Assembly (NCBI GenBank): GCA_028287925.1 | Contig: JAQBOS010000645.1 | Span: 1 to 32,582 of the forward strand | DNA: 32,582 bases | Origin: Mucilaginibacter sp. | GTDB lineage: Bacteria; Bacteroidota; Bacteroidia; Sphingobacteriales; Sphingobacteriaceae | Direction of reading: 5' to 3' | Shown here: positions 1,725 to 20,551 of the stretch, one piece after another | Numbering within the stretch: position 1 is the first letter of the stretch | Layout: the number at the start of each line of letters is the position of its first letter | Program-made: the position numbers and the translations under genes | The notes under the pieces: model-generated | Told to the model about the DNA's origin: nothing | Seen by the model: the letters and a program-made list of their open reading frames with translations, nothing else | The model's database searches: none

Positions 1725-4646
1725 TTAATTCGTTATATCTATCAAAAAATCATACAGATGTATATCTGTTGAAAGGTTTAGCTTTTTGCGTACCCGGTAC
1801 CTGCTGATCTCAACACCTTTAAGGGAGATGTTAAGCAATTGCGCTATTTCTTTTGATGTAAGGTTAAGCCTTAAATAGGCGCAAAGCTTTAAATCGGTTG
1901 AGCTAAGGCCCGGGAACTTGGTTTTCATAGTGCTCAGGAAGTTGTTATGTACCTGGTCAAAGTAGATAGCAAAATGGTTCCAGTCGTCGTCGTTTTTATC
2001 GGTATCGCTCAATAGCTTAAATACGCTTCTGAATTGGTAAACCGGATCAGGAATGTTTAGCTTCTTTGTTAAAGTCATTAGCTCATCCTTAATGTTCAGC
2101 AGCAAACGGCCCCGGTCAACCAGGTGCATGGTTAGCGTGGCCAGCTCTTTGTTTTTATAATTTATCTCTGTTTCAAGATTATCATTCTTTAGGGCGATGA
2201 TCTCTTTTTCGTTCCTGTCGAGCTCAAGGCTGTGTAAGTACTGAAGTCTTTTTTGTTCATCCTCGTGTCTTTTTTGATGCGCTTTGAATTTTTTGTGCTG
2301 TGCTCTTGCCGCTGCGAAAATGGCGCAGGTTATTATCAAAACATAAAAGAAATATGCCCAGGGAGTTTGATAGGATGCAGGCTCAACAGTAAAAGTGTAG
2401 TTTACCGGGGCAGACGCATTACCCAGGTTGTTACGCGCTTTTACCGAGAATGTATAAGTGCCGTATGGCAAATTCGTATAATCTTTCTCGGTTTTTACCG
2501 ACCAATTTGACCACTCTTTATCAAACCCAATCAACTTATAAGTAAACTCCTCATTGCTTTTTTGAGCAAATAAAGTTGAGGAATATTCAAAATGGAATGA
2601 GTTCCAGTGATTGGTTACTGTGGGGATATGTTTAGTGTGTTGAACATCGGTTATCCGATTGTTTTTCATAAAATAACCACCAAAAATAAGACTGTCCTTT
2701 TCGGCAATTGTTTTAACCGTGGTTAACAATACGTTTAGCTTGCTTTCAGTAGAAACATACTGCCGGTAGTTTAAATGGAAGACCCCATTGGTTGAGCCTA
2801 CAAATATATTTTCCGCATCATAAGGATATATAAACCCTGAGCCTTTCACCATTTGACCGGCCAGCTCAGGGAAATAGATAACATTATAAGGTTTATTTGC
2901 TGAAGGCTTTGTAAAATCAATAACACCAACCCGCTGATTGCTGATAAACCAGATATTGCCGCTCTTGTCTTCTGTCAGGTACTCAATAACGGCATCGCCA
3001 AAAATAGGATTGAAATAAGCAGAGCGGATAAATTTGTTATTAACAGTGCTGTATTCAAAAATGCCTTTTTCAGTACCGGCAATAATTTTATTTTTTATAA
3101 AATATACATGGTTGTTCAGGATGGAAGGGAGCCCGCTTTTTTCGGTATATTGCGTATAGATAGCAATCTTTTTTCTATCGGGCGAAAGCTGGATCTTGTA
3201 GATGCCCCTGTATGGATGTGAAGCCCATATAGTGTTGTTATTATCCCTGGCAATGGTTGACAGGGACTCATAGATCCCTGAAATTTTCCCAGCATTGGTG
3301 AAACTTCCGTTAACAGATTGCAAAAGCTGCAAGCCTGTATAGGTGCTGGTAATAATATCATGCGAGTTGGGGATAGGTTTAAACATCCATGCCCCCTGCC
3401 CGGTATATATTGGTTCTGTATGGTTGTTACGCAATAACATAACGCCATCCTGGTGCCCTATTATAAGGTTGCGCTCTATTTCGCTAAAGCTCCACACCTG
3501 GCCCCTGGTGTTGTCAACCTCGGTAAAAGTTCCTTTGCATTTGCTGATGTCATTTTGCTGCTCATCCAGCGGAATGCTATATAAACCATTTGACGTGCCG
3601 ATAAACAGTTTTTTATCAAATACAATTGCGGCATTGCTTTTTAGCTGGTTTTCTTTCTCAGGGTAAATATGCTTAACCGATGAGTTATAGTTTATAAAAT
3701 CGAGCCCGTCTTCGAGGCCAAGCCATAGGTTTTTATCATGATCAATCAGCACCGCATGGATGTTATTATTTTGCAGTCCCTCGTTGTTTGAAATGCGCTC
3801 AACCAGGTTTCCCTTTCCATCAATTATAAAAAGGCCTTTTGCCGCGCTGGCTATAGCGTACCTGTCATCTCCTACCTTTTTTGTACAGGTAACCAGGTCG
3901 TTATTTAAAATATTATCAATTGCCGTGTTTTTTTTGATAAGGGATGATCCTGTTAATAAAAACAATCCCTTTTTTAATGTGGTAACAAGCAGTGTATCTT
4001 CCTTGTATTCAATTATTCCGGTTACCTGCAGGCCGGCTGTTGGCAATGTGCCGCAGCAGTGTTGCCATTGGTTCCCCTTGAAGATCATGAAGCCCGAATC
4101 TTTATCGTCTGCATACAATTGCGGGCCCGCCTTTGACAGCATCCGCCAGCCCCCTGGCGCATCGAATGTTTTTATCTCATTATCTTTTAGTTCAAAAATG
4201 CACTCTATAGTACGGAAGAACACCTCGTTATTAAAAAGGACAACATTCCAGATATCCGCAAATTGCCGGGCTTTTTGGGGCAGCAGATTTTTTAATGAAT
4301 GAAATTGCAGGATGCCATCCTTATCAGGGAAAAAATAACCGATCTCATCCTGTCCGCCACAATAGATCTTTCCGGACGGATCAATCGCCAATGATTTAAT
4401 GGCAGCCTTGTTGGGCATCTGGTAAATTTTCCAGTAGCTTCCGTCGAAAGATAATAACCCGTCGTTATTGGCGAAGTAAAGAATGCCGTTTTTGTCCTGG
4501 TTAATATCCCAAATTTCTGTAGCCGCATCGTAATCCGCATGGGTATAATTTTTAATCGCCGGGATCCCAATAGTTGGCTGTGCAATAGCCGGGCAGGTTA
4601 AAGCAAGGAATACAATAATTAATAAAGCATTTTTCTTAATTAACAT
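1725..4646 (-). CDS. Two-component-regulator-propeller / Y_Y_Y domain sensor with one TM segment, coiled coil and C-terminal LuxR-type HTH (no kinase domain)
   Basis: Signal peptide; propeller repeats (DKNGILYFANNDGLLSFDG, DHDKNLWLGLEDGLDFI, DKSGNIWFISNQRVGVIDF); Y_Y_Y region (EFTYKLIGFDKEWSNWS...YTNLPYGTYTFSVKARN); TM (WAYFFYVLIITCAIFAAA); C-terminal HTH (LTSKEIAQLLNISLKGVEISRYRVRKKLNL). Confidence 0.9.
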   Translation of the reverse strand: MLIKKNALLIIVFLALTCPAIAQPTIGIPAIKNYTHADYDAATEIWDINQDKNGILYFANNDGLLSFDGSYWKIYQMPNKAAIKSLAIDPSGKIYCGGQDEIGYFFPDKDGILQFHSLKNLLPQKARQFADIWNVVLFNNEVFFRTIECIFELKDNEIKTFDAPGGWRMLSKAGPQLYADDKDSGFMIFKGNQWQHCCGTLPTAGLQVTGIIEYKEDTLLVTTLKKGLFLLTGSSLIKKNTAIDNILNNDLVTCTKKVGDDRYAIASAAKGLFIIDGKGNLVERISNNEGLQNNNIHAVLIDHDKNLWLGLEDGLDFINYNSSVKHIYPEKENQLKSNAAIVFDKKLFIGTSNGLYSIPLDEQQNDISKCKGTFTEVDNTRGQVWSFSEIERNLIIGHQDGVMLLRNNHTEPIYTGQGAWMFKPIPNSHDIITSTYTGLQLLQSVNGSFTNAGKISGIYESLSTIARDNNNTIWASHPYRGIYKIQLSPDRKKIAIYTQYTEKSGLPSILNNHVYFIKNKIIAGTEKGIFEYSTVNNKFIRSAYFNPIFGDAVIEYLTEDKSGNIWFISNQRVGVIDFTKPSANKPYNVIYFPELAGQMVKGSGFIYPYDAENIFVGSTNGVFHLNYRQYVSTESKLNVLLTTVKTIAEKDSLIFGGYFMKNNRITDVQHTKHIPTVTNHWNSFHFEYSSTLFAQKSNEEFTYKLIGFDKEWSNWSVKTEKDYTNLPYGTYTFSVKARNNLGNASAPVNYTFTVEPASYQTPWAYFFYVLIITCAIFAAARAQHKKFKAHQKRHEDEQKRLQYLHSLELDRNEKEIIALKNDNLETEINYKNKELATLTMHLVDRGRLLLNIKDELMTLTKKLNIPDPVYQFRSVFKLLSDTDKNDDDWNHFAIYFDQVHNNFLSTMKTKFPGLSSTDLKLCAYLRLNLTSKEIAQLLNISLKGVEISRYRVRKKLNLSTDIHLYDFLIDITN

Positions 4647-4766
4647 TCCGGTTAAATAATTAGTACCGTAAATTAATGAAGATTTTATATAAACAGGTAG
4701 GAATTTGATTTAGAAAAGCTTGTAGGGGTATTTTTGCTGCTTTTTAGCTATGTTTTAGTAAATCTT

Positions 4767-4783
4767 GTAGTGGTAATGTAGGG
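4767..4783 (+). promoter_or_regulatory. Candidate regulator binding site (GTAGTGGTAATGTAGGG)
   Basis: Matches the bipartite motif found twice in the ThuA/SusC intergenic region; lies upstream of the Y_Y_Y/LuxR regulator (start 4646, minus). Confidence 0.5.
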
Positions 4784-4795
4784 AAGGGGGGAGAG

Positions 4796-4848
4796 AGTCA
4801 GGAATCAAGATGTCAAGAGTCATGAATCAAGAGGGCAAGAGTCAGGAA
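4796..4848 (+). repeat. 22-bp direct repeat, 2.4 copies (AGTCANGAATCAAGAKGYCAAG)
   Basis: Units agtcaggaatcaagatgtcaag (4796-4817), agtcatgaatcaagagggcaag (4818-4839), agtcaggaa (4840-4848). Confidence 0.8.
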
Positions 4849-4970
4849 GTAAATTCACTAACGTGATGCCCGGATAAGTTTCATATCAATATGTGGTACC
4901 TCATGCTCACTTTGTCAGATTTTCTTGAGTTTATTTCCCGTTGTTACATCCTAATTGTTAATCTCTGATT

Positions 4971-5771
4971 TTATCTTGATTCTTGACCTCTTGAATCTTG
5001 ACTCTTTCCAACCGCCCAAAATATTGCGTTACGGACTAAAGTGGTATAATTGCCGTCATCAAAAAGCTCGGGGAAATGTCCCATGGCTATGTAAATGTTT
5101 TTTGCCTTTACATGTTCATTGGTCCATATAACGGGATGGTCGCCCATTTTAACATCTTTTGGCGGGTTGTAGGTAGTTTCATCAATACTTGCCAGCACAT
5201 GTACATTTTCGCGCGGGCTTTTATTATAGATATACCATTCGTCTTTTGTAGTGAAGGATGCCGGTATTCCGCTCATAACAGGATGGGCGGGATCTTCAAC
5301 AGTAAGTTTGGCTGCCGTGCCGCCGGGAATGTGCCGCTTAAACTCAATATCGCCCATGAAGCCTGAATACCATTGCCACATTGGGTAACCATCAAACACG
5401 CCTAATAAAGTAGGGTGATGAAAACCTACCCATCCGCCACGGCCATTTTTTATATAATCTTCAAAAGCATCCTGCGCATCTTTTTCCCATGGATAGGGAG
5501 GATAATCAAGCTGGATAAAAAGCTGGTATTGTTTCAGGAAATCTTTGTTTATTGATTTTGTATCACTGATATAATCTATGGTAAAATTGCTATCGGCAGC
5601 CAGTTTATTTAACCAGGCTTTTGCGGCTACATCAAATAAAGCGTGCCCGCCGCCAATTTCTGCAATAGCTACGGCTTTAAACCTGGGCTTTTGAGCTGTT
5701 TGCGCAATAGCGAAATGAATGCTGCAAATAAAAAATAGGTAAAGGATCAGGCTTATTAAATGTTTTTTCAT
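4971..5771 (-). CDS. ThuA domain-containing secreted protein
   Basis: Signal peptide. ThuA-like blocks KSINKDFLKQYQLFIQLDYPPYPW, NGRGGWVGFHHPTL, VEDPAHPVMSGIP, DEWYIYNKSPRENVHVLASID, GDHPVIWTNEHVKAKNIYIAMGHFPELF. Confidence 0.88.
   Translation of the reverse strand: MKKHLISLILYLFFICSIHFAIAQTAQKPRFKAVAIAEIGGGHALFDVAAKAWLNKLAADSNFTIDYISDTKSINKDFLKQYQLFIQLDYPPYPWEKDAQDAFEDYIKNGRGGWVGFHHPTLLGVFDGYPMWQWYSGFMGDIEFKRHIPGGTAAKLTVEDPAHPVMSGIPASFTTKDEWYIYNKSPRENVHVLASIDETTYNPPKDVKMGDHPVIWTNEHVKAKNIYIAMGHFPELFDDGNYTTLVRNAIFWAVGKSQDSRGQESR
4973..5007 (-). repeat. Inverted copy of the 22-bp intergenic repeat, overlapping the 3' end of the ThuA gene
   Basis: Reverse complement AAAGAGTCAAGATTCAAGAGGTCAAGAATCAAGAT matches the 4817-4848 repeat at 27 of 32 positions by hand alignment. 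Confidence 0.8.
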
Positions 5772-5863
5772 TGTCGGTTCAATATATCATATGATGCCTA
5801 AGCGTTGCCACTTGTGACAAGTATATATGAAACTTTTTGTTTATGGCCCTTTTACAACTTAAA

Positions 5864-5880
5864 GTAGTGGTATTGTAGTG
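5864..5880 (+). promoter_or_regulatory. Candidate regulator binding site (GTAGTGGTATTGTAGTG)
   Basis: GTAGTG half-site repeated with 11-bp start-to-start spacing; in the divergent ThuA/SusC intergenic region. Confidence 0.55.
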
Positions 5881-5975
5881 CAACTCTCAAATTTTGCTTA
5901 ATCTCAATTATTTGCCGTTCAGGAGTTGTACAAATTGAAACATAAAATGCAGTTTATCCGCTATAATTGATAAGC

Positions 5976-5992
5976 CACTACATTACCTCTAC
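5976..5992 (-). promoter_or_regulatory. Candidate regulator binding site (GTAGAGGTAATGTAGTG on minus strand)
   Basis: Plus-strand cactacattacctctac is the reverse complement of the same motif; inverted relative to 5864-5880. Confidence 0.55.
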
Positions 5993-6081
5993 CAGCCTCT
6001 AAAAGTCATACAATCGTAAATATTTCATTGTAAGTTCGGTGAAACTAACATCCTAATACTCACTTTAAAAAACTTATTTTT

Positions 6082-9000
6082 ATGAAAAAACTCTACATGT
6101 TAGTTACGTTTCTGCTGGGCTGCTTTATGTATGCTTCTGCGCAAAATGTAACTGTAAAGGGTACTGTGACAGATGATCACAACCTGCCCCTGCCGGGGGT
6201 AAACGTTAAGGTATCCGGAACCACTGGCGGTACCTCAACCAGTGTTGACGGAAATTATTCCATTAGTGCGCCAGCCGGCTCATCATTGGTGTTTAGCTTT
6301 ATCGGGTTTGTTACCCAAACCGTAAAGGCAAACAAGGTAGTGATCAACATTGTTCTGCAGACCGACCAGCACATACTGGAAACAGTAACGGTAACGGCGC
6401 TGGGCATTGAGCAAAAAACCAAATCACTAACGTATGCAACACAGAATGTTGGCGGCGCCGAACTTGAAAAGGCAAAAGACCCGAACTTTGTAAATTCACT
6501 TGCCGGTAAAGCTGCCGGTTTGGTAATTACTAAAGGTACCGGTGGCCCCGGCAGCGCATCAAGAATTGAATTGAGAGGCGCCAAATCAATAGGCGGCAAC
6601 AGCGCCCCTATTTATGTAATTGACGGGATCCCTATTGGCCAGGGCGCGGGCGGCACAATGGCCGGCCTTGGTGATGGCGCGGGTATAGACCCGTTATCAA
6701 ACCTTAACCCTGATGATATTGAAAGTATCCAGGTATTAAAAGGAGCCAGCGCGGCAGCGCTATATGGCAGTGCGGCGGCAAACGGCGCTTTGCTTATTGT
6801 AACCAAAAAAGGTAAAGCCGGCGCTACAAAGATAGATTTCAATTCATCTACCAGTTTTGACACGCCTACAGGTTTGCCATCGCCGCAAACAACGTACGGA
6901 CGCACCACTCCGGGCGCGGATGATATGTGGGGTGCAAAATCAAGTGGTGCAAGCAACGCTTTCATCAAAAACTTTTTTAATACCGGTAAAACTTATATCA
7001 ATGGCGTATCGCTTTCAGGCGGCAGCGAGAAGGCTTTGTTCTATGCATCATATGCCAATACCAAAGCAACGGGTATTGTACCCAACAACTCGCTGTTAAA
7101 GCACAACTTTACGTTAAGGGGATCCGGTAAGTTTTTAAACGACAAGCTAACGCTTGATGCTTCGGTTAACTACATCTATCAAAAACAGGAAAACCCGCCA
7201 AAAGCTGGTTTGACGTTTAGCCCGATGTTTGGTTTATACCAGTTCCCAACCGACGATAATTTTGGCAACTACGACAAAAATCATTTTGAAACATATGACG
7301 CTACCCGTAAGTTAAGTCAGCAGAACTGGCCTTATGAAAAAAATGAGTTCAGTTCAAACCAAAACCCTTACTGGATTGCATACCGGGATTTGAATGAACG
7401 CTCTTCAGGCCGCTACATTTCATCATTTAAAGCAAAGTATAACTTTGCCAGCTGGCTTAACCTGCAGGCGCGTACTACTTTAGATGGTTATAACTATCGC
7501 AACCAGGCTGAAAATTATGCAACTACCGATCCTGTTGCACAAAGCGCACAGCAAAGTATTAACGGATCATATTTTACAGGCCAGGGCTACGGAACACATT
7601 TATACTCGGATCTGTTGCTTTCTGTTGATACCAAAGTTGGCCGCGATTTCTCATTAGAAGCTACGTTAGGTGTAACAGACGACAGGAGCTATGATTACAG
7701 TACCAGCCTTTCAAGCACCAATCAGTATGGATTAAGCTTGGCTAATTATTTCTCGGCCAATAACTATGATCTAACGCACCCGCTGGCAGTTGGTGAGAAT
7801 GAATCTAAAGGCATCACACAATCTGCATTGGCTACGGCTACCATTGGATATAAAGAAACGCTGTTTTTAAATGTAACCGGGCGTAATGAATGGGCTTATA
7901 CTACACCTACTTCATTCTTTTACCCGTCAGTAGGCTTGTCATACGTGCTGACCAATACAATCGGTACATCTGATGTATTATCATACGCCAAGTTAAGGGC
8001 ATCATATGCCAACGTTGGTGCAGCACCGGGCCAGGGTGCTAATAATAGTAACCCGCCATACTCGCTTAATAACCTGCAGCCAATAGTAGGAACAAACCCA
8101 ATAAGTCAGTTGCCTTTCCGTGATGGCACCAATCCACCAGTTGAGATAAAACCTGAACGTACAAAAACGCTGGAGTTTGGCGCACAGGTTACTTTATTTA
8201 CTAAACTGAATGTTGACCTTGCTTATTATGACGCGCGTACCAGCGATCAGATTATTAGTATCGCAGCACCATCAGGAGCAGGCGCACAGACCTTTATATT
8301 GAATGGCGGCGAGATCAGGAACTATGGTTTTGAGGGTACCATTAGCTATAATGCAAGCTTCGGCGATTTAAAATGGATGCCGTCTTTAAACTTTTCGCAC
8401 AATATAAACCAGATCCGTGCGCTTAGCCCTTTATACACAGCAGACCATTACGTAATTTCGAGTCAGGATAATACACGCCTGGTTGCAACCTGGTTAGTAA
8501 GGCCAAAAGATGGTAAATACAGCGCCTTTGGCGACTATTATGGCAGAATTATAGATAAAAACCCTGATGGATCAATAAAAGTTGATAACAATGGGGTGCC
8601 GGTTTTAACGTCTGCAGACGATCCACGGTATGTGGGTAATCCAAATCCTAAATTCTTAGCCGGTTTTAATAACAGCTTCCGTTATAAGAACATCAACCTT
8701 TCGTTTTTGGTTGACAGCCGTTTTGGCGGACAGACATTTTCAATGACCAATACCTGGTTTGACTATAAAGGCATTTCGCAGCGTACAGCGGATGCACGTA
8801 ATGCAGGCGGAGTGGTAGTTAACGGTAAGAAAGTTGATGCGCAGGCTTACTACACAGCAATATCCGGCGGTGCCGATGGTGGAGCAGTGCCCGAGTATAC
8901 CTACAGCGCTACAAACGTGCGTTTAAGGGAACTTGCCCTGGGGTATACCTTCCCACTGGTTGGCAAAACCTTTAAAAACTTAAATATCTCGTTAACCGGC

Positions 9001-9141
9001 CATAACCTGTTTTTCTTTTACAAGAAAGCACCTTATGACCCGGAACAGGCAATTTCAACAGCAACTAATACCATGGGCATTGATGGCTTTGGCGTACCGG
9101 CCACCCGCACCTTCGGTTTTAGTGTCAGAACTTCGCTTTAA
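6082..9141 (+). CDS. SusC/RagA family TonB-linked outer membrane protein
   Basis: Signal peptide; CarboxypepD_reg-like region (VTDDHNLPLPGVNVKVSGTTGGTSTSVDGNYSI); plug (APIYVIDGIPIG...IESIQVLKGASAAALYGSAAANGALLIVTKKG); C-terminal beta-barrel end. Confidence 0.96.
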   Translation: MKKLYMLVTFLLGCFMYASAQNVTVKGTVTDDHNLPLPGVNVKVSGTTGGTSTSVDGNYSISAPAGSSLVFSFIGFVTQTVKANKVVINIVLQTDQHILETVTVTALGIEQKTKSLTYATQNVGGAELEKAKDPNFVNSLAGKAAGLVITKGTGGPGSASRIELRGAKSIGGNSAPIYVIDGIPIGQGAGGTMAGLGDGAGIDPLSNLNPDDIESIQVLKGASAAALYGSAAANGALLIVTKKGKAGATKIDFNSSTSFDTPTGLPSPQTTYGRTTPGADDMWGAKSSGASNAFIKNFFNTGKTYINGVSLSGGSEKALFYASYANTKATGIVPNNSLLKHNFTLRGSGKFLNDKLTLDASVNYIYQKQENPPKAGLTFSPMFGLYQFPTDDNFGNYDKNHFETYDATRKLSQQNWPYEKNEFSSNQNPYWIAYRDLNERSSGRYISSFKAKYNFASWLNLQARTTLDGYNYRNQAENYATTDPVAQSAQQSINGSYFTGQGYGTHLYSDLLLSVDTKVGRDFSLEATLGVTDDRSYDYSTSLSSTNQYGLSLANYFSANNYDLTHPLAVGENESKGITQSALATATIGYKETLFLNVTGRNEWAYTTPTSFFYPSVGLSYVLTNTIGTSDVLSYAKLRASYANVGAAPGQGANNSNPPYSLNNLQPIVGTNPISQLPFRDGTNPPVEIKPERTKTLEFGAQVTLFTKLNVDLAYYDARTSDQIISIAAPSGAGAQTFILNGGEIRNYGFEGTISYNASFGDLKWMPSLNFSHNINQIRALSPLYTADHYVISSQDNTRLVATWLVRPKDGKYSAFGDYYGRIIDKNPDGSIKVDNNGVPVLTSADDPRYVGNPNPKFLAGFNNSFRYKNINLSFLVDSRFGGQTFSMTNTWFDYKGISQRTADARNAGGVVVNGKKVDAQAYYTAISGGADGGAVPEYTYSATNVRLRELALGYTFPLVGKTFKNLNISLTGHNLFFFYKKAPYDPEQAISTATNTMGIDGFGVPATRTFGFSVRTSL

Positions 9142-9164: not shown

Positions 9165-10754
9165 ATGAAAAAATTAAAAAATATAAAAAGTGCGATCACG
9201 CTTAGCGCAATTGCCCTGCTTTCCTTCGCTACTTCTTGCAGGAAGGATATGAACGGCCTTAATCAGGACCTTAAACAAATACCACAGCCGTTGCTGAGCA
9301 TTGATGGTAAAGAAGCAAGTATTTTACTGCCCGGCATGATGACCAATATCGAATCCCCAACAAATTATATTTACCAGGGCCAGCAGGATTTGGGCCAGGA
9401 TGAATATGCAGGTTATACTGCTGTGCCTTCGGTGTTTTTGGGTAACGTAAACAACTTTACTTACAGCTTTGTAAGCGACTGGGTTGATTATTGCTGGGAT
9501 ACCCCGCAGCAAAATATACTGAACACCTGGCTGCAGTGGAAATTAAAGGGATTTGATACAAAATATCCCGATCTGTATGGAATAGCCTTAATTTGTAAAG
9601 TATTTGGCGCCAGCAGGGCAGCAGATACGTTTGGCCCTATTCCTTACAGTAAAATAGGGACAACGGCAAATGTTCCGTTTGATACTGTGCAGGATGCATA
9701 CAACGCATTTTTCGCTGATCTTGACCAAGCAATTGCCGCTTTGTCTGCTATTGAAGATAAAGATCCGAATGCTTACAAGCTTCGTTTCCAGGCGTTTGAT
9801 AACAGTCTCTTTAAAGGGGATTATGCCAAGTGGATCAGGGCCGCCAACACGCTGAAATTGCGTTTGGCTATCCGGATCTCAAATATTGATGCTGCTAAAT
9901 CAAAAACAGAAGCAGAATCTGCAGTTAGTAATAAATATGGCGTTCTGGAAGCTGCCGATGGCGGGTTCTTTATGAATGTATCCGGCGAAAATCCTATTGA
10001 TGAGATCGTAACTTCATGGGGCGATATGCGTTTAGGCGCCCCTGTTGGTTCAATATTAGGCGGCTTAAAAGACCCAAGGCTTGCTAAAATGGCTTTACCT
10101 GCTGATGATCCTGCTCTTAACGGCCAGGTTGAAGGTATAAGAACAGGCATCCCGCTTACTACCGGTACCTATAGCAACTTTTCAAAGCTTGCAACCTCAT
10201 TTGGCGCGCCGCTAAAAATTATGAGTGTGGCCGAAAGTTTCTTTCTGCGTTCAGAGGGTGTGCTTAGGGGCTGGAATATGGGCGGAGGCTCGGCCCAGAG
10301 CTTTTACGAAGATGGCGTTAAAGCATCGTTCAGTGAATATGGTGCAGGTGGGGTAGATGCTTATCTTGCAGATGCTACCTCAACTCCTGCTGCTTACGTT
10401 GATCCTAAAAACGCAGCTAACAATGCGCCGCCGCTTTCAAACATCACCGTTAAATGGAATGATGGCGACCCAATGGCCAGGAAACTGGAACGCATTATTA
10501 CACAAAAATGGATAGCCATATACCCAGAAGGTTACGAAGGTTGGGCTGAATTTAGAAGAACCGGTTACCCGCACCAATATCCTATAACAAAGAATGATAG
10601 CCAGGGCAAAGTAGCAAATGGCGACTTTGTAAAACGGATGCCGTATTCGGCAACGTTTACCAACGCATCAAAAGCACAGGTTGATGCCGCCGTGGCCAAA
10701 GAGTTTGGCGGCGATGACAGCCCCGGCAAACGCTTGTGGTGGGATATAAATTAA
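9165..10754 (+). CDS. SusD/RagB family nutrient-binding outer membrane lipoprotein (SusD-like variant)
   Basis: Lipoprotein signal (LLSFATSCRKD); SusD-like blocks (YPDLYGIALICKVFGASRAADTFGPIPYS, EGYEGWAEFRRTGYP); directly downstream of SusC. Confidence 0.93.
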   Translation: MKKLKNIKSAITLSAIALLSFATSCRKDMNGLNQDLKQIPQPLLSIDGKEASILLPGMMTNIESPTNYIYQGQQDLGQDEYAGYTAVPSVFLGNVNNFTYSFVSDWVDYCWDTPQQNILNTWLQWKLKGFDTKYPDLYGIALICKVFGASRAADTFGPIPYSKIGTTANVPFDTVQDAYNAFFADLDQAIAALSAIEDKDPNAYKLRFQAFDNSLFKGDYAKWIRAANTLKLRLAIRISNIDAAKSKTEAESAVSNKYGVLEAADGGFFMNVSGENPIDEIVTSWGDMRLGAPVGSILGGLKDPRLAKMALPADDPALNGQVEGIRTGIPLTTGTYSNFSKLATSFGAPLKIMSVAESFFLRSEGVLRGWNMGGGSAQSFYEDGVKASFSEYGAGGVDAYLADATSTPAAYVDPKNAANNAPPLSNITVKWNDGDPMARKLERIITQKWIAIYPEGYEGWAEFRRTGYPHQYPITKNDSQGKVANGDFVKRMPYSATFTNASKAQVDAAVAKEFGGDDSPGKRLWWDIN

Positions 10755-11041: not shown

Positions 11042-14000
11042 ATGTCTTTACATGGTTCCGTCCTTCCCGATAATGTCAATTCAGAAAAGCAATTCCCTGT
11101 GGTCGGGATCGGTGCATCAGCAGGGGGCATAGAGGCATTTAAACTTTTTTTGAAGTCGATACCTGAAAAATCAGGCATGGCTTACGTATTTGTTCAGCAC
11201 CTGCATCCGGAATATGATAGCTATTTGCCCGAAATTTTTCAAAAATCTACCAAAATTCCGGTTAGTTTAATAGAAGATAATATACACTTAGAACCCAATC
11301 ATATCTATGTTATTCCTCCCGGTAATATCCTTACAGCTACAGATGGGGTACTAAAACTCGATCCGTTAAAAAATAAAAAAGTTAAAACTATTGATGTTTT
11401 CTTTTCGTCACTGGCCATTGTTCATCAAAGCTTTGCTATTGGCGTGGTATTGTCTGGTGCATTAAATGACGGTACGCTTGGCCTGCAGGTAATTAAATCA
11501 CACGGGGGATTAACATTTGCCCAGAGTGAGGATTCGGCTATTTTTGACAGCATGCCCAAAAGCGCTATCAGGTCGGGAGCTGTTGATTTTATTTTGCCTG
11601 CCGGTCAGATCATCGAAAAGCTAATCTCTATTAATCAGCCATTTCGCACAAATTATACAAAATCAGAGATCAAACAAAACGAGCCGGAACAGGATGAAGA
11701 AGTTTTCAGGCAGCTGCTTACCGTATTGCGCATCAGGCGGGGGGTTGATTTTACCAACTATAAACAAAGTACTATTAAACGGCGCATTATTAGGCGAATG
11801 GCCCTTAGTAAATTTGAAAAACCCAAAGATTATTTAATTTTTTTACGGGAAAATAAAAGCGAGCAGGATGCATTATATAATGATATGCTGATATCAGTAA
11901 CTGATTTTTTCAGAGATCCGAAAAGCTTTGAAATGTTATGCACCTCTATATTTCCCGGGCTTTTGCTTCACAAAACCGCTACTGAACCACTCCGGATCTG
12001 GGTGGCGGGTTGTGCTACCGGCGAAGAGGCCTATTCAATGGCTATTTGTCTGCAGGAGTATTTAGGCGACAAAGTATCGGCCCGAAAGATCCAAATCTTT
12101 GCTACGGATGTATCTGAAATGGCCATTTCGAGGGCAAGGACGGGTATTTACCGCCAAACGGAGCTTGAAGGCCTTTCCTCGTTCCAGGTACAGCAATTTT
12201 TTAACAAGGTGGATGGCAGTTACCAGGTAAATAAATCAATAAGGGATATGTGTGTGTTTGCGCACCATAATTTGCTAAAGGATCCTCCTTTTTCAAAAAT
12301 AGATTTGGTGAGCTGCCGCAATGTAATGATATACCTGGAGCCGGTGCTTCAAAAAAGAGCATTAAATACCTTTCATTACGCACTGAATGAAAAGGGTTAT
12401 TTAATGATGGGAAAATCAGAAACCATCGGGTCGAGCACTGACCTGTTTTTGCCTGTTGATAAGAATCAGAAGCTCTACCAGTCAAAAGGCCCGCATGGAA
12501 AATTCAGGAATGTAACATCTGAAAGGAGTGAGCAAACATTAAAAGATATTGACCAGGTAAACGCTGACAATGGCGGGGAAAGGGACATCAATAAAATTGC
12601 AGATGCCTTATTATTATCAAAATATACACCAGCGGGTGTTATGGTTAACCAGGCGTTTGATATTATTCAATTTCGCGGTAAAACAGATGCCTGGCTCGCG
12701 GTTTCGCCAGGTAAACCAAGCTTCAATGTGTTGAAAATGGCCCGCGAAGGCCTTTCATTCGAGATCAGGAACTTACTGCACATGGCTAAAACCAGGCAAG
12801 CTGCGGTTCGTAAAGAGGGCATTTCATTTAAGGTAGATGAGGGGCAGCAGCAGTATGTTAATATTGAGGTGGTGCAATTGTCAGACAACGAAGAGGCTTA
12901 TTATTTAATACTTTTCCAAAACAGCATTCTTTCAGGAACTTCATTTTTAGCTGAAAATGGGGCATCGTCTCTGCATCCGCAGGAAAATGTAAATGCCTGG
13001 GCACAACGGATTGAGCAACTGGAAAAAGAGCTGAGCCAAAGCCGCGAGGATATGCGGTCGATAACTGAAATGCAGGAAGCAGCCAATGAAGAGCTGCAAA
13101 GCGCCAATGAAGAGCTGTTATCCGGCAGCGAGGAACTGCGCAGCCTGAACGAAGAACTGGAAACCTCGACAGAGGAGCTGCAAAGCACCAACGAGGAAAT
13201 AACTATTGTAAATAATGAGCTCCTTGACAGAAACGATCAGCTGAATAATTCCAGAAGATATACCGAGGAGATCTTTAATACTATCCATGACCCGTTGGTT
13301 ATTTTGGATAAAGAACTTATAGTATTACGCGCAACTGATGGATTTTACAATATGTTCAGGGTAAATGAAGAGGATACCGAAGGACAATTTGTATATGACC
13401 TGGGCAATAAACAATGGAACATCCCCGCATTGCGGCACCTGTTAGAAGATATATTACCAGAACAGGGCTTTTTTAAGGCTTTTGAAGTTGACCATGTTTT
13501 TAAAACCATTGGCCGCAGGATAATGCAATTAACCGCAAGGCAATTTGATACCTATACCAATGAAAAATTGACCCTGCTGGCCATACATGACATAACGGAC
13601 AAACGAAAAGTAGAGGAAGGGCTTGCCGAAGCTGAACGTTTACTGGCTGAGAGTAAGGAGAGGCTGCATTTTGCCATTGAATCTGCCGGGATAGGAGCAT
13701 GGGATTTTAACCCGATAACCAGGGAATTGATTTGGGATAACCGGAACAAAGAGTTATTTGGCCTTGCACCGGCAGATGAAATTGATTTTGATGCTTTTTT
13801 AAAGCTTATTCACCCTGATGACCGTGATGCTACCGCTGATGCCATAAGTAAGGCATTGAAAGGCATAAATGACGGTGAGTTTAACATTGAATACCGTTCT
13901 ATTGGTAAAAATGATCAGAAGCTGCGATGGATAAAATCAAAAGGGAAAGCTTATTTTGATAAAGATAAAAAGCCCACCCGTTTTATCGGTACTGTTTTAG

Positions 14001-14710
14001 ATGTTTCAATTGAAAAGGAACTGGAGCAAACAACATTGGGCTTGCTGCGAAAGAAGGATGAATTTATAAGCATAGCCAGTCACGAGCTAAAAACTCCGAT
14101 CACAACCCTTAGAGCATCATTGCAATTACTGGACAGGATGAAAAATAACCCGTCGCCAATGCTGCCCAAATTTTTGGACCAGGCCAGCAGGAGCGTGGAA
14201 AGGATAACCCGCCTTATTGATGAGCTGCTGAATGTTAACAGCATGAAAGAGGGCCAGTTAAGATTAAATAAACACTCATTTCCCATTGCAGATCTGCTAA
14301 AGGAATGCTGCAGCCATGTAAGGGCGATAGGTAAATATGACCTGATTATACAGGGTGATGAAACCCTGCTGGTAAATGCCGATGAAGACAGGGTTGACCA
14401 GGTAGTGGTTAACCTGGTGAACAACGCTGTTAAATATGCGCCGGACGGCAAAAATATTTATTTGATTATTGAGAAGGAAGGTAATGCAGTTAAGGTCTCC
14501 GTAAAAGATTCCGGTCCGGGCATCCCGAAGGATAAGATCCCTCATTTATTTGACCGTTATTACCGGGCAGATTATAATGGCGGCCAATATTCAGGAATGG
14601 GGTTAGGCCTTTATATCTGCTCTGAGATCATTAAACGGCATGGCGGAACCATTGGTGTTGATAGTAAAATAGGAGAGGGGGCAACATTTTGGTTTACGTT
14701 GCCGTTGTAA
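11042..14710 (+). CDS. CheB methylesterase-CheR methyltransferase-coiled coil-PAS-PAS-histidine kinase fusion protein
   Basis: CheB: VVGIGASAGGIEAF, FVQHLHPEYDSYLPEI, VLSGALNDGTLGLQVIKSHGGLTFAQ. CheR: LRIWVAGCATGEEAYSMAICLQEYL, LVSCRNVMIYL. Coiled coil ELQSANEELLSGSEELRSLNEELETSTEELQSTNEE. HisKA FISIASHELKTPITTLRASLQLL. HATPase VNLVNNAVKYAPDG, KDSGPGIPKDKIPHLFDRYYR, GMGLGLYICSEIIKRHGG. Confidence 0.95.
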   Translation: MSLHGSVLPDNVNSEKQFPVVGIGASAGGIEAFKLFLKSIPEKSGMAYVFVQHLHPEYDSYLPEIFQKSTKIPVSLIEDNIHLEPNHIYVIPPGNILTATDGVLKLDPLKNKKVKTIDVFFSSLAIVHQSFAIGVVLSGALNDGTLGLQVIKSHGGLTFAQSEDSAIFDSMPKSAIRSGAVDFILPAGQIIEKLISINQPFRTNYTKSEIKQNEPEQDEEVFRQLLTVLRIRRGVDFTNYKQSTIKRRIIRRMALSKFEKPKDYLIFLRENKSEQDALYNDMLISVTDFFRDPKSFEMLCTSIFPGLLLHKTATEPLRIWVAGCATGEEAYSMAICLQEYLGDKVSARKIQIFATDVSEMAISRARTGIYRQTELEGLSSFQVQQFFNKVDGSYQVNKSIRDMCVFAHHNLLKDPPFSKIDLVSCRNVMIYLEPVLQKRALNTFHYALNEKGYLMMGKSETIGSSTDLFLPVDKNQKLYQSKGPHGKFRNVTSERSEQTLKDIDQVNADNGGERDINKIADALLLSKYTPAGVMVNQAFDIIQFRGKTDAWLAVSPGKPSFNVLKMAREGLSFEIRNLLHMAKTRQAAVRKEGISFKVDEGQQQYVNIEVVQLSDNEEAYYLILFQNSILSGTSFLAENGASSLHPQENVNAWAQRIEQLEKELSQSREDMRSITEMQEAANEELQSANEELLSGSEELRSLNEELETSTEELQSTNEEITIVNNELLDRNDQLNNSRRYTEEIFNTIHDPLVILDKELIVLRATDGFYNMFRVNEEDTEGQFVYDLGNKQWNIPALRHLLEDILPEQGFFKAFEVDHVFKTIGRRIMQLTARQFDTYTNEKLTLLAIHDITDKRKVEEGLAEAERLLAESKERLHFAIESAGIGAWDFNPITRELIWDNRNKELFGLAPADEIDFDAFLKLIHPDDRDATADAISKALKGINDGEFNIEYRSIGKNDQKLRWIKSKGKAYFDKDKKPTRFIGTVLDVSIEKELEQTTLGLLRKKDEFISIASHELKTPITTLRASLQLLDRMKNNPSPMLPKFLDQASRSVERITRLIDELLNVNSMKEGQLRLNKHSFPIADLLKECCSHVRAIGKYDLIIQGDETLLVNADEDRVDQVVVNLVNNAVKYAPDGKNIYLIIEKEGNAVKVSVKDSGPGIPKDKIPHLFDRYYRADYNGGQYSGMGLGLYICSEIIKRHGGTIGVDSKIGEGATFWFTLPL

Positions 14711-14830: not shown

Positions 14831-17113
14831 TTATTTTTCGTTCGACATTGAATAAGGTACATCACTCTTATCAATCCCCCTTTGTTTATTGGGCGTGGCC
14901 TGCATATCAAAATTAAGATCAGCTCCTTCAAGCAATGCTTTGTGGCTTAGCCAGTTAAATTGATAAGGTTTGCCATTAACCCGCAGGCTGTTCACATATT
15001 TGTTTTCGGCGCTGTTATTGGCAGCGTTAATGATGATGGTTTTACCATTTTCTAAATTAATGGTTAGCTTTTTAAACAACGGTGCGCCTAATACATACTG
15101 ATCGCTTGCCGGTGTAACCGGGTAAAAGCCCATTGCCGAAAATACATACCAGGCCGATGTTTGCCCGTTATCTTCGTCACCACAATAACCATCGGGCGTG
15201 GCTCTATACATCCTGTTCATGGTTTCGCGGGCCCAATATTGAGTTTTCCATGGCTCACCGGCAAAATTGTACAGGTAGATCATATGCTGAATAGGCTGAT
15301 TACCATGTGCATACTGGCCCATGTCGGCTATCTGCATCTCGCGGATCTCGTGGATCACCGTACCGTAATAGCTGTCATCAAAAACGGGGGGCAGAATAAA
15401 TACCGAATCCAGTTTGGCTACAAATTGTTGTTTGCCGCCCATTAGGTTTATAAGGCCCTGGATATCATGAAAAACGCCCCAGCTGTAATGCCAGCTGTTT
15501 CCCTCGGTAAAGGCATCGCCCCATTTAAAAGGGTTGAACGGGGTTTCAAACGATCCATCTTTGTTTTTGCCACGCATTAAACCGGTTTGCTTATCGTACA
15601 GGTTCCGGTAGTTCTGGCTGCGTTTTTTATAAACATCAATTTCTGCAGCCGGGCGGCCAAGCGCCTTACCAAGCTGGTAAATAGCAAAGTCATCATAAGC
15701 ATATTCCAGGGTGCGGGCAGCATTTTCATTGATCTTTACATCATAAGGGACATAGCCAAGAGTATTATAATATTGTACACCCCTGCGACCGGCTGCATTT
15801 GGTCCCTCATTATTGGCGCCGTGTTTTAAGGCCTCATACAGGGTTTTAATATCATAACCGCGCATCCCTTTTAAATAGGCCTCGGCAACTACTGATGCTG
15901 AATTATTGCCTATCATACAATCGGCATAGCCCGGACTTGACCACTCGGGCAGCCAGCCGCCTTCTTTATAATCATTCACCAGGCCTTCCTGCATTTCTTT
16001 ATTTATAGATGGATAAACCAGATTAAGAAAGGGGTACAATGCCCTGAAGGTATCCCAAAAACCGGTGCCCGCGAAAAGGTAACCCGGCATAACCTTACCA
16101 TTAAACGGACTGTAATGGATGTTTTGCCCCCTGGCATCAACTTCATACATTTTATTAGGGAAGAAGAGCATGCGGTAAAGGCAGGAATAAAAAGTACGGG
16201 TTTGATCAATAGTGCCGCCTTCAACATTTAAACGGCTCAGTGTTTTGTTCCAGGTTGCTTTTGCTTTTTGTTCGGTTGTCGTAAAGCTGTCATTTGCAAG
16301 CTCGCGCTTTAAATTAAGCTCAGCCTGTTCAATGCTTACAAATGATGAAGCAACCCTAAGGTGAATCTGCTCGCCTTTTTTTGTTTTAAAGCTGATAACC
16401 GCGCCGGCATGGTCGCCGGTATATTCCAGTTTGCCGCCATCCGTTTGCTTATCATGCCAGGCCGATGCCAGCTCAAAGTCCTTATCGATATAAATAACAA
16501 AATAGTTTTTAAAGTTTGCCGGTACCGCCCCGCTGTTTTTGGTGCTGTAGCCAACAATCTTTCGCTCGCCGGGAATGATCTTCACGTACGATCCTTTATC
16601 AAAAGCATCAATTAAAATATGCGAGCTGTCGCTTTTAGGGAAAGTAAACCTGAAGCTGGCTGCCCGCTCCGTTGGTGTAATTTCGGTAGTAACATCATAA
16701 TCGGCTAAATAAACACTGTAATAATAGGGTTTTGCTATCTCCGCTTTATGCGAGAACCAGCTGGCGCGTTTGCCTTCGTCAAGTACCAGCTTGCCGGTTT
16801 CGGGAAAGATAGAGAACATGCCATAATCATTCATCCATGGTGATGGCTGATGTGTTTGTTTAAAGCCCAGGATCTTGTCGGCGTCATAAGTATATTGCCA
16901 GCCGTTGCCCATTTTACCGGTTTGCGGTGTCCAGAAATTCATTCCCCAGGGCAGTGCTATTGCAGGGTAAGTATTACCGTTCGAGATGGTTGGTTTTGAA
17001 GCGGTTCCCATTAACGGATTGATCAGATCGGCAGGATCTGTAACATTGCCGGCTGATTGTGCGAATATGGAAAGAGGAAAAAGTAATGCAGCTAATAAAG
17101 TAACTTTTTTCAT
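14831..17113 (-). CDS. GH92 family glycosyl hydrolase (alpha-mannosidase family)
   Basis: GH92-like blocks: NTYPAIALPWGMNFWTPQTG, GFKQTHQPSPWMNDYGMFSIFP, GTGFWDTFRALYPFLNLVYP, GGWLPEWSSPGYADCMIGNNSASVVAEAYLKG, EGNSWHYSWGVFHDIQGLINLMGG, GNQPIQHMIYLYNFAGEPWKTQYWARETMNRMY, GYCGDEDNGQTSAWYVFSAMGFYPVTP. Confidence 0.96.
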   Translation of the reverse strand: MKKVTLLAALLFPLSIFAQSAGNVTDPADLINPLMGTASKPTISNGNTYPAIALPWGMNFWTPQTGKMGNGWQYTYDADKILGFKQTHQPSPWMNDYGMFSIFPETGKLVLDEGKRASWFSHKAEIAKPYYYSVYLADYDVTTEITPTERAASFRFTFPKSDSSHILIDAFDKGSYVKIIPGERKIVGYSTKNSGAVPANFKNYFVIYIDKDFELASAWHDKQTDGGKLEYTGDHAGAVISFKTKKGEQIHLRVASSFVSIEQAELNLKRELANDSFTTTEQKAKATWNKTLSRLNVEGGTIDQTRTFYSCLYRMLFFPNKMYEVDARGQNIHYSPFNGKVMPGYLFAGTGFWDTFRALYPFLNLVYPSINKEMQEGLVNDYKEGGWLPEWSSPGYADCMIGNNSASVVAEAYLKGMRGYDIKTLYEALKHGANNEGPNAAGRRGVQYYNTLGYVPYDVKINENAARTLEYAYDDFAIYQLGKALGRPAAEIDVYKKRSQNYRNLYDKQTGLMRGKNKDGSFETPFNPFKWGDAFTEGNSWHYSWGVFHDIQGLINLMGGKQQFVAKLDSVFILPPVFDDSYYGTVIHEIREMQIADMGQYAHGNQPIQHMIYLYNFAGEPWKTQYWARETMNRMYRATPDGYCGDEDNGQTSAWYVFSAMGFYPVTPASDQYVLGAPLFKKLTINLENGKTIIINAANNSAENKYVNSLRVNGKPYQFNWLSHKALLEGADLNFDMQATPNKQRGIDKSDVPYSMSNEK

Positions 17114-17160
17114 GTAGTACTGTGTTCTTAATAAGAGGGCCTGGGTTGTATGTTAAAGGA

Positions 17161-18168
17161 TTAAATTTTCTTGTAATAGATCAGCTCCCCGGCTTCGCCG
17201 CTTGCTGAACCTTGCGAGGGAATAAATTGGGTCATAACTATTGCCGGCTGACCGCCAACGGTTAACATAGTGAGGGTGGGATTTGCAAATGCAGCACTGC
17301 CGCCATCGGTATGAATATTTAATTTATCAGCATTGCCGGTTTGGTAATCATACAGGTAGCATCGCCAGGTTCCAAAATCGCCCTTAGTGCCCTGGCCTTC
17401 AATCACACCAAAATTATAGGTTTGGAAATTCAGGTAGCCGTCACGGTCGCCAATGTTGCCTTTAACGCCCCAGTATAAAATGGCATTATCAATTTGTGTT
17501 TGCGCGCCTGCACTCCATGACGTCCAGTTGGTGGTACCGCGTGCCTGGCGGTCAACGTCACAATTGCTCCAGTAATGAAAGCCAACATCAACCGAGGTGC
17601 TGCTTGCCGAATAAATATTGGGTGTGCCCTCCGCACAGGTTGAAAGCGTATGCGGGGCTTCGTATGTTTTAGCAACTGCACCGTTTTTCAGGTCAGTCCA
17701 GCTGTTAAAATAACTGAATTTAAGGTGATTGTTTGGCTCCTGTTCCCATACCATAACAAATCCACCGGTGGCGGTAGCCGCAATGGTAGGTTGTGAGGCA
17801 CCGCCGGTAACGCTCCCGGCAAGCTCCCTGATCCATGTCCAGTGAAGCAGGTCTGTTGAGGATGCTACGTTTGTTTTAAATGTATCGGCTATCATGGTAT
17901 GGTACACACCAATATAGCCGCCCGAGGGGTTTGCAATTATTTTAAGGCAATCCATAGTTTTGCCCGTATTGTCTTTAGCTGCATAAACTTTACCATCAGC
18001 AGTAGTTACATTTTCAAGATATCCTCTCAGGATGGCTCTTGGCCCATCAGACGGCGGGGCAGAAGGCAGCTGCTGTTTCGTGTTTACATTAACCGTATTG
18101 CTTTTTTGGCATGAAATAAATAGCAGCAGGATTGCTATGCTATTGATAATAAATGTGCGCTTTCCCAT
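17161..18168 (-). CDS. Secreted lipoprotein, probable beta-propeller (sialidase/GH43-like fold), function unassigned
   Basis: Lipobox LLLFISCQKS; propeller-like repeats (ASSTDLLHWTWIREL, KFSYFNSWTDLKNG, GFHYWSNCDVDRQARGTTNWTSW, GDRDGYLNFQTYNFG). No family assigned with certainty. Confidence 0.6.
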   Translation of the reverse strand: MGKRTFIINSIAILLLFISCQKSNTVNVNTKQQLPSAPPSDGPRAILRGYLENVTTADGKVYAAKDNTGKTMDCLKIIANPSGGYIGVYHTMIADTFKTNVASSTDLLHWTWIRELAGSVTGGASQPTIAATATGGFVMVWEQEPNNHLKFSYFNSWTDLKNGAVAKTYEAPHTLSTCAEGTPNIYSASSTSVDVGFHYWSNCDVDRQARGTTNWTSWSAGAQTQIDNAILYWGVKGNIGDRDGYLNFQTYNFGVIEGQGTKGDFGTWRCYLYDYQTGNADKLNIHTDGGSAAFANPTLTMLTVGGQPAIVMTQFIPSQGSASGEAGELIYYKKI

Positions 18169-18231
18169 AACTCTTCCTGGTTAATTTATTAACTCAATTT
18201 GATTAGTACATTATAGGAAACCCTGGCCTTC

Positions 18232-18268
18232 AAAAAACTCCCGCGCACAATTGCCTGTGCACGGAAGT
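18232..18268 (-). terminator. Intrinsic terminator between GH-like gene and propeller gene
   Basis: Minus strand: ACTTCCGTGCAC-AGGCAATT-GTGCGCGGGAGT-TTTTT; 12-bp stem with two G.U pairs, then a T-tract. Confidence 0.85.
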
Positions 18269-18295
18269 AACCAACCTTTCCTCAAAAAAGCTCTT

Positions 18296-20482
18296 TTACC
18301 ATTGCAGATCAACCTTTATACCGTCGGGGCTGTTGGCAAAGCCGAGGTATAGCGTATTTGATGAGCTGTCCCACGATGTTTTAACATCAGTAATGGTTTG
18401 TCCTTTGCTATCGGTAACGGTAGTTGCCTTTGGTTCTGCAGGCAATAATACACGTACGCTGTTTAATGTTTTTACAGGGCTTTTGGCGATGAAAGAATAG
18501 CTGCCGCTTTTGATCTTCGCTTCATAAATCCTGGAAGCTGATGCTAAAACCTGCGGTTTTGTTTTATCGGCAACACGATTCACTACATATAATAATGCCT
18601 GTTCGCCAGGGTTAACCGTTTTTTCGGCAAGTACCGGCAATTGCGGATCAAAAAGGTCAATAACAGGGCCCTTTATTGCGTAAGGTTTGCTGTCGGCATT
18701 TTCATCAAGTACTGAAACCACATCATACGGGCCCCTTTCCAAATACAGGCTGTTTTTAAATACCAGCTCTCCGGCTTTGGCATCGTTTTCATATCCCTTT
18801 TTTACCAGGTTGATGAACGTATTGTCATTATTAGCCTGTATTACAAACTCTTTAGGGTTTTGCCTTAACACATAAACCGCGCCTTTACCAACTTTGAATT
18901 TTTCATTCTCTTTTGTTGGTTTGATGCCAAGCAGCTTGAACAGGTGCTGTGATGGCGCTGTAAACTTATTGCCTTTGGTATCCCACCATTCCATTACAGA
19001 TTGGTAGGGGTCATCATCCCTGCCGCAATAAATTAATACGCCACCTTTTTTAACCCAGCTTGCTAACTCGGTATGGATCTCTGCAGATACCGGTTTCATG
19101 TTTGAGTAGCTCATCACCAAAACCTTAATGTCTTTTAATGAGGCCGCATAGCTAAGGTTTTCCATGTGCACGGTTTGTACCGGCACTCCGCGTTTTAACA
19201 GCGGCAGCGTTTGCCCGTAAAAGTTGGAGAACTGCGGGTCTTCGAATCCGTTATGAGTAGGGAAGCGCTGGAACATCAATGTATTGCTCATTAACACCCC
19301 AACACCATTTACGCCCGATACCTGGTTGGCTGATTTTGGCATGCTGTTCAAAGCATTAACCATTATCTGCATTTGGGTTGAGTAAAATTGTGGGATCAGG
19401 ATCTTTTCGTTGCTGCCCAATACCGGGTATGGATGGGTATAGATCCGCTCGGGCCATGGCATTACCTCGTAATCAGCAACCATGGGGTATAAAAGTTTGG
19501 CAGTAAATGTAGCCTGGTAGTTGCGCTTGTAATCGCTCCAGTCATGCACGCGGTCTTCAATCGGGTCTGTTAAAAGGAACATTTTGCGTTTGGTTGGCGC
19601 CGTCATTGAAACGGCTGAGCCGTATTCAAGGAATGCATTTTCAAAAACACGTTCTTTTTGGATCCCGTTAAAGTAAGTAGGTTCACGGGCGGTGCCGGTC
19701 CACACCTGGGCTATGTAGCCATCAATGCTCGGTAATGAGGCCAGGCTTGCTTCCGGACTTACAATTTGCCATGATGAATAATTAACAAGGGAGTGCGTTG
19801 CTATAAAAACCTTAACGTCCACCCCTTTACTTTTGCCATATGATTTGGCGTATTCGGATACCTGTTTTATGGCGTCGTAATATAAATGGTATTTTAGCTT
19901 GCTCGATAAGTAGGTGTTTTCGGCTGATGCATCCTGGGGTTTCCATGGAAAACCGTAATATTTTTGCCATTCTTCTTTAAATGGCGCGCTGTAACCAGCG
20001 CGTGCCCAAAATTCGGGCTCTTCTAAAAATATGGTGCTGATGTTTGCATCAATCACCCTTTTAACAACAGCCGTTTTCATATAATCAATAAACGACTGTA
20101 CCGGTACAACATAAGGCATGTTCCGGCCATGCATAATAGTGTCGCCCTTCATGGTCACCTGGCCAACGCCCAGGTGGTTTTTGCCATCCCACTTGCCCAA
20201 AAAATAATCGAAATACTGGCCCCAGGCAATGCCTGTCATAAAGTTTACCTGGTAGCCATGGTCGCGCCATGATTGTACGCGTTGTTCAAAGGTCATTCCG
20301 GCGCGATCATTAGCGCCATAAACAATGGCAATGTCTGATCGTACATCAATCTCCGGCATCCAGGGGCTGCTGGTTTGAAAAGCGGTTTTTTGGGGAAGCT
20401 GCCCGGTAGCCTGGTCATTTTGCTGTGCAAGCAGGGAAAGTGATGTAACCATCAGGCTATAAAACAGGATAGATCTTTTCAT
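18296..20482 (-). CDS. Putative secreted glycoside-hydrolase-like protein (TIM-barrel-like N-terminal region plus GH42 trimerisation/GATase-like region), family unassigned
   Basis: Signal peptide; barrel-like segments (RVIDANISTIFLEEPEFWARAGYS, VDVKVFIATHSLVNYSSW, IDGYIAQVWTGTAREPTYF); C-terminal KVLVMSYSNMKPVSAEIHTELASWVKKGGVLIYCGRDDDPY resembles a GATase-like fold. Located in a GH92 PUL. Confidence 0.6.
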   Translation of the reverse strand: MKRSILFYSLMVTSLSLLAQQNDQATGQLPQKTAFQTSSPWMPEIDVRSDIAIVYGANDRAGMTFEQRVQSWRDHGYQVNFMTGIAWGQYFDYFLGKWDGKNHLGVGQVTMKGDTIMHGRNMPYVVPVQSFIDYMKTAVVKRVIDANISTIFLEEPEFWARAGYSAPFKEEWQKYYGFPWKPQDASAENTYLSSKLKYHLYYDAIKQVSEYAKSYGKSKGVDVKVFIATHSLVNYSSWQIVSPEASLASLPSIDGYIAQVWTGTAREPTYFNGIQKERVFENAFLEYGSAVSMTAPTKRKMFLLTDPIEDRVHDWSDYKRNYQATFTAKLLYPMVADYEVMPWPERIYTHPYPVLGSNEKILIPQFYSTQMQIMVNALNSMPKSANQVSGVNGVGVLMSNTLMFQRFPTHNGFEDPQFSNFYGQTLPLLKRGVPVQTVHMENLSYAASLKDIKVLVMSYSNMKPVSAEIHTELASWVKKGGVLIYCGRDDDPYQSVMEWWDTKGNKFTAPSQHLFKLLGIKPTKENEKFKVGKGAVYVLRQNPKEFVIQANNDNTFINLVKKGYENDAKAGELVFKNSLYLERGPYDVVSVLDENADSKPYAIKGPVIDLFDPQLPVLAEKTVNPGEQALLYVVNRVADKTKPQVLASASRIYEAKIKSGSYSFIAKSPVKTLNSVRVLLPAEPKATTVTDSKGQTITDVKTSWDSSSNTLYLGFANSPDGIKVDLQW

Positions 20483-20514
20483 TAAATAATAATTTATAAT
20501 AAGTAGCTGTAGGG

Positions 20515-20541
20515 TAAAAAAGCAGGGCCGAAGCCCTGCTT
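20515..20541 (-). terminator. Intrinsic terminator with UUCG tetraloop after DUF3823-like gene
   Basis: Minus strand: AAGCAGGGC-TTCG-GCCCTGCTT-TTTT, perfect stem followed by a T-tract. Confidence 0.9.
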
Positions 20542-20551
20542 AAAACATTTA

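Follow-up and report, generated by a model that had tools for sequence, protein, structure and literature searches.

Spaced direct repeats as probable operators of a membrane-spanning, sugar-sensing LuxR-type regulator in Mucilaginibacter

The window analysed here, a stretch of 32,582 nucleotides from Mucilaginibacter sp. (contig JAQBOS010000645.1), contains three near-copies of a 17-bp sequence around the genes for a regulator, a ThuA-domain protein and a SusC/SusD pair, which raises the question of which protein reads them and which genes it controls. We addressed this computationally, from the sites, their spacing and conservation, their co-occurrence with the regulator, promoter geometry and gene content. 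Our reading is that the 17-mers are very probably the docking site of the membrane-spanning, sugar-sensing regulator encoded beside them (REG; 1725–4646, minus strand).

All three 17-mers noted in the preliminary description were recovered as exact matches, at 4767–4783 (plus strand), 5864–5880 (plus strand) and 5976–5992 (minus strand), and its claim of intergenic-only placement held for 3/3. Operator 1 (GTAGTG-GTAAT-GTAGGG) is centred 128 bp upstream of the REG start and runs antisense to REG. The other two lie, as had been described, between the divergent ThuA and SusC genes: operator 2 (GTAGTG-GTATT-GTAGTG) is ThuA-proximal, 93 bp upstream of ThuA (antisense to it) and 202 bp upstream of SusC, and operator 3 (GTAGAG-GTAAT-GTAGTG) is SusC-proximal, 90 bp upstream of SusC and antisense to it. 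Distances in relatives, in most of which the SusC site lies 78–91 bp upstream, assign the 5976(−) site to SusC and the 5864(+) site to ThuA. The predicted targets are a ThuA-domain protein (4971–5771, minus strand; Pfam ThuA, 147 bits) and a SusC/RagA TonB-dependent transporter (6082–9141, plus strand; Pfam, and NCBIfam TIGR04056 at 618 bits), which is followed, in what is predicted to be one operon, by a SusD-like lipoprotein (9165–10754, plus strand; Pfam SusD-like, 492 bits).

Allowing up to three mismatches, the window holds one further match, a single three-mismatch site at 16951; dinucleotide shuffles of the window (n = 100) gave a mean of 0.61 matches at this threshold, and none of the 100 reached four. 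The 6.2-Mb genome (675 contigs, with the assembly 86% complete) has four exact matches to the pattern, of which the window accounts for three, and with up to two mismatches the pattern occurs 20 times against 21 for the reversed control. The signal therefore resides in near-exact sites, and conservation must separate sites from noise; whole-genome scoring by mismatches to the 17-mer was dropped, and sites were sorted instead by conservation with the spacer freed. The free-spacer form GTAGWGN5GTAGKG matched nine times in the genome against one control match. One weak, unassigned site each was also seen on contig C642, where it precedes an ECF sigma gene, and on contig C601.

The motif had been described as bipartite, GTAGNG-GTAWT-GTAGKG, and here the outer hexamers stand, being kept in relatives, and the middle GTAWT does not: it appears as GTGAT, CTAAT, TTAAT, GTAAA or CTTTT while the GTAGWG and GTAGKG hexamers persist, which rules it out as a third conserved box. 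What is conserved is GTAGWG-N5-GTAGKG, a direct repeat with an 11-bp period. When the window promoters were aligned with those of five relatives, the sites stood out as islands amid diverged flanks. Separately, repeats of type AGAGTCAAGATTCAAGAGGTCAAGA lie between REG and ThuA (4793–4850 and 4972–5012), with an inverted counterpart at the ThuA 3′ end and similar words in relatives, and are possibly a dispersed repeat family.

By its predicted domain architecture, REG (973 aa) is a one-component transcription factor that joins a periplasmic sugar sensor like that of hybrid two-component systems (HTCS) through one transmembrane helix to a LuxR/NarL-type helix-turn-helix (HTH). A signal peptide, the periplasmic propeller/Y_Y_Y sensor, the transmembrane helix, a linker and the C-terminal HTH follow one another, with hydrophobic segments at aa 1–28 and 761–782. 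Only Reg_prop (45.7 bits), Y_Y_Y (44.1 bits) and GerE (24.4 bits) pass the Pfam cut-offs, and no kinase, receiver or AraC HTH was found among them; the GerE match (aa 927–967) exceeds the curated cut-off of 23.5 bits and places REG in the LuxR/NarL family. The sensor resembles the HTCS sensor structures 4a2l (E = 1.5e-20) and 3v9f. Within the HTH region (approximately aa 911–968; 1743–1916, minus strand), the recognition helix SLKGVEISRYRVRKKL is almost constant among REG orthologs and becomes SVRGVEISRYRLRKKL in paralogs of 38–48% identity.

Upstream of the predicted targets, GTAG-Nk-GTAG peaks only at k = 7, the 6-5-6 arrangement, and hardly occurs at other k. With target classes assigned by similarity to proteins of the window and its neighbourhood, the k = 7 form precedes 33/47 REG, 24/30 ThuA, 12/13 SusC, 25/32 GH9a, 25/25 PTS EIIA, 9/10 RHGA and 9/9 ECF sigma genes; among REG promoters of at least 56% identity, the exact form is absent from 6/38. 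The motif lies 44–185 bp upstream of REG, ThuA and SusC genes. A single fixed orientation relative to the target gene is ruled out: orientation is constant for each orthologous gene and differs between genes.

Among 45 deduplicated promoters with sense sites, 15 have an exact Bacteroidota −7 box, TAnnTTTG, that begins 32 bp past the site end, whereas in 200 shuffles no offset gathered more than 2; if one mismatch is tolerated, sense sites give 31 matches at offset 32–33. For antisense sites the peak moves to 37–38 (17 matches in 46 promoters), so that reversing the asymmetric site shifts its placement by about half a helical turn. Candidate boxes in the window are TAAGTTCG for SusC (6031–6038, plus strand), 38 bp past operator 3, and, on sequence and offset statistics, TATACTTG for ThuA (5818–5825, minus strand), 38 bp from operator 2; no consistent −7 box offset was found at REG promoters. 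Since the sites lie directly upstream of the core promoter, they occupy the usual activator position, and from the fixed offsets we infer that the bound protein behaves as an activator. Around the candidate −7 box of SusC, the leader AATATTTCATTGTAAGTTCGGTGAAAC (6017–6046) is near-invariant in relatives despite diverged flanks and may contain more than a promoter box.

We think it highly likely that the 17-mers are operators through which REG activates ThuA, SusC/SusD, itself and unlinked operons. That REG instead represses from these operators and is released by ligand is improbable but deserves some weight, as the sites closely precede the promoter and extra half-sites at REG's own gene could serve auto-repression. 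Such a half-site had been described at 4722–4732 and is indeed present (GTAGGG at 4722–4727, plus strand), 45 bp from operator 1 and between it and the REG start; three of five close relatives share the half-site. Across 32 REG promoters (at least 56% identity) there are 16 to 17 extra GTAGKG copies between operator and gene on the strand of the site, where about one is expected, compared with one on the far side of the operator and two on the opposite strand. Their distances from the operator are 21, 34, 44/45, 54/55, 73 or 76 bp, which in nearly every case match a multiple of the 11-bp turn to within 1 bp, and grouping by relatedness (our own grouping) leaves 7 of 8 positions in phase. This post hoc pattern is suggestive of a cooperating or auto-regulatory subunit. 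Against repression, the operators end 32–38 bp upstream of the −7 box, where activators usually bind, and neither overlap nor follow the box, and the membrane regulator SusR, which governs a locus of this kind, is an activator (PMC3878776).

The pairing of the site with the Y_Y_Y/LuxR protein, proposed at the outset, gained support from three sides: co-occurrence across genomes, promoters in genomes that lack REG, and the promoters of paralogs with a nearly identical recognition helix. In a sample of 150 genomes of the soil bacterial genus Mucilaginibacter, 42 with a REG ortholog (at least 56% identity) and 108 without, the exact motif was present in 29/42 and 0/108, respectively (Fisher 3e-21), and the relaxed motif GTAGWGNTRWWGTAGKG, a pattern derived from the same sites later counted with it, in 42/42 and 7/108 (Fisher 3e-30), although both values overstate independence because the genomes are related. 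Two of the seven relaxed matches without REG fall in the divergent promoter between a REG paralog of approximately 46% identity and its own SusC gene, and three fall within reading frames, where they look like chance occurrences and were rejected as true sites.

Another transcription factor, encoded elsewhere, could bind the motif and have REG as merely one of its targets. REG, GH9 and PTS genes co-occur, so co-occurrence alone is unable to single out REG, and an AraC-family gene adjoins some REG loci; that gene is, however, absent at the window locus. The PTS promoters speak more directly to the point. The EIID component of the PTS was found in 42 of the 150 genomes, 36 of which also have REG; the spaced repeat stands at the PTS promoter in 25/25 REG-linked loci examined and in 0/6 PTS-positive genomes lacking REG (Fisher 1.4e-6), which argues that the operator follows the regulator and not the target gene. 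Paralogous regulators (38–48% identity) near different SusC genes also keep the same spacing upstream of themselves, with GTAG-N7-GTAG before their own gene in 12/25 cases, always antisense, and its exact form absent from 13/25; among homologs below 38% identity it was seen in 1/9. We therefore regard a separate factor as quite unlikely, somewhat more so than repression, and retain REG as the protein most probably bound.

Since ECF sigma genes are among the predicted targets, the motif might itself be taken for part of a promoter read by an alternative (ECF) sigma factor. This is very improbable, because the sites face either way relative to their genes, and a sigma promoter is not readable backwards, and because a distinct TAnnTTTG box follows them at a constant distance. 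It is hardly credible that the sites are chance resemblances or belong to a dispersed repeat element, a reading for which the parity of two-mismatch matches with the reversed control in this genome would speak: the motif is not equally common elsewhere, the exact form having no reversed-control match in 150 Mucilaginibacter genomes and 134/139 collected distinct relaxed sites being intergenic, while conservation in orthologous promoters, with site positions retained as flanks diverge, the co-occurrence of the relaxed motif with REG and the spacing peak at k = 7 all contradict it.

The regulon had been given as REG's own gene, ThuA and SusC/SusD, which is correct as far as it goes and incomplete, because an unlinked GH9, a GH2, a PTS and other operons bear the same site. 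Predicted unlinked targets include a GH9-thioredoxin-ThuA operon, a pectate-lyase-like protein, two other GH9s, DUF5009 genes and ECF sigma factors, together with a mannose-class PTS (EIIA, EIIB, fused EIICD, EI and HPr) whose last gene encodes a NagB-like glucosamine-6-phosphate deaminase. The GH9 has full-length similarity to the exo-acting Vibrio/Photobacterium enzymes VC0615, PBPRA0520 and VP2484 (the VC0615/5dgq group; E from 5.6e-130 to 2.4e-127), the next GH9 structure after this group being at E = 3.7e-14; VC0615, from V. cholerae, acts not only on chitosan oligomers but on beta-glucosides too (PMC6096475). The GH2, on another contig, is nearest to the exo-beta-D-glucosaminidase CsxA (E = 3.5e-155; next, a beta-mannosidase at 6.6e-28), and its site lies 113–121 bp upstream in 7/7 closest genomes, with a freely varying spacer, and is absent in five more distant relatives. 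As the GH9, the CsxA-like GH2 and the deaminase of the PTS operon suggest, beta-linked glucosamine saccharides (chitosan-like) are the most likely substrates of the regulon, and glucosamine is our best guess for the ligand; the RHGA-like, ThuA and ECF genes alone do not indicate glucosamine.

The PTS belongs to the mannose class by its EIIA-man, EIIB-sorbose, EIIC and EIID components with EI and HPr, on contigs C549 and C407 of the window's own genome. The operon with fused EIICD, EI, HPr and the NagB-like deaminase is seen at L110:13885–17458 and at L284:2–4302 (the latter being contig C407), and about a quarter of Mucilaginibacter genomes carry it complete. Searches outside the genus covered REG relatives and the EIID family; EIID was found in 0 of 296 other, evenly sampled Bacteroidota genomes, which makes horizontal acquisition of this PTS, now under a Sus-type regulator, probable. 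In several relatives, operators also stand 29–82 bp upstream of ECF sigma genes (L117:5954, L120:6058, L129:5819, L114:5809, L228:4288, L229:4374 and L231:4071), which suggests a regulatory cascade. Elsewhere in the window, a single protein with CheB, CheR, PAS, HisKA and HATPase domains is encoded directly downstream of SusC/SusD (11042–14710), followed by a second SusC/SusD locus (14831–26490) with GH92, DUF3823 and two proteins without a Pfam match (17161–18168 and 18296–20482); the window scan found no near-exact operator of this motif at that second locus.

In the mechanism that we favour, two REG HTH domains would bind both hexamers of GTAGWG-N5-GTAGKG head to tail on one helix face, in a ComA-like manner. 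Bound directly upstream of a TAnnTTTG promoter, REG would activate its own gene, ThuA and SusC/SusD, and also the unlinked operons for the GH9 exo-glucosaminidase-like enzyme, the CsxA-like GH2 and the mannose-class PTS with its deaminase. Uptake through SusC/D would then be followed by glucosamine release, PTS import as GlcN-6-P and deamination to fructose-6-P.

This arrangement has parallels in several known systems. ComA of Bacillus subtilis binds TTGCGG-N5-TTGCGG, for which N5 is optimal and most other spacer lengths abolish binding (PMC4797271), and the repeats described here show the same two direct-repeat hexamers and strict 5-nt spacer (k = 7 and hardly any other k). Both proteins have a LuxR/NarL-type HTH and an activator position near the promoter, but ComA, a response regulator of quorum sensing, is soluble, recognises another hexamer and can bind inverted repeats as well, whereas REG spans the membrane and carries a sugar-type sensor. 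The SusR-like regulators of sus loci in Bacteroides are one-component and membrane-spanning like REG, and their operators, too, are direct repeats in phase with the helix, as HTCS operators are direct repeats. The centres of SusR repeats are 67 or 77 bp apart (PMC3878776), unlike the main repeat here with its period of 11 bp, and the extra half-sites at REG promoters lie 21–76 bp from the operator. The SusR C-terminal domain resembles no known family (PMC3878776), whereas REG has a GerE HTH. The HTCS of Bacteroides have the same periplasmic propeller and Y_Y_Y sensor, but their kinase, receiver and AraC HTH are missing from REG, which is therefore not itself an HTCS. Vibrio chitosan/(GlcN)2 catabolism (VC0615, PMC6096475) is linked to this regulon by a GH9 of the same exo-acting subgroup on full-length match, and differs in phylum, regulator and transporters, the Mucilaginibacter regulon using SusC/D and a mannose-class PTS.

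Glycan loci in Bacteroidota are known to be regulated by SusR-like proteins, hybrid two-component systems and ECF sigma/anti-sigma pairs. On balance, REG probably represents a further type, in which an HTCS-type sensor sits directly on a LuxR HTH without a phosphorelay, acts through a ComA-like 6-5-6 repeat with phased half-sites, and to whose Sus-type glucosamine regulon a mannose-class PTS, all but absent elsewhere in the phylum, has been recruited. The searchable literature yielded no published operator for a regulator of the propeller/Y_Y_Y-LuxR class; the class now gains a candidate operator with a concrete consensus, a spacing rule and a promoter geometry, and the target list renders the ligand and mechanism of REG directly testable. 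A complete PTS under a Sus-type regulator would further suggest how a foreign import system joined the sugar network of its host.
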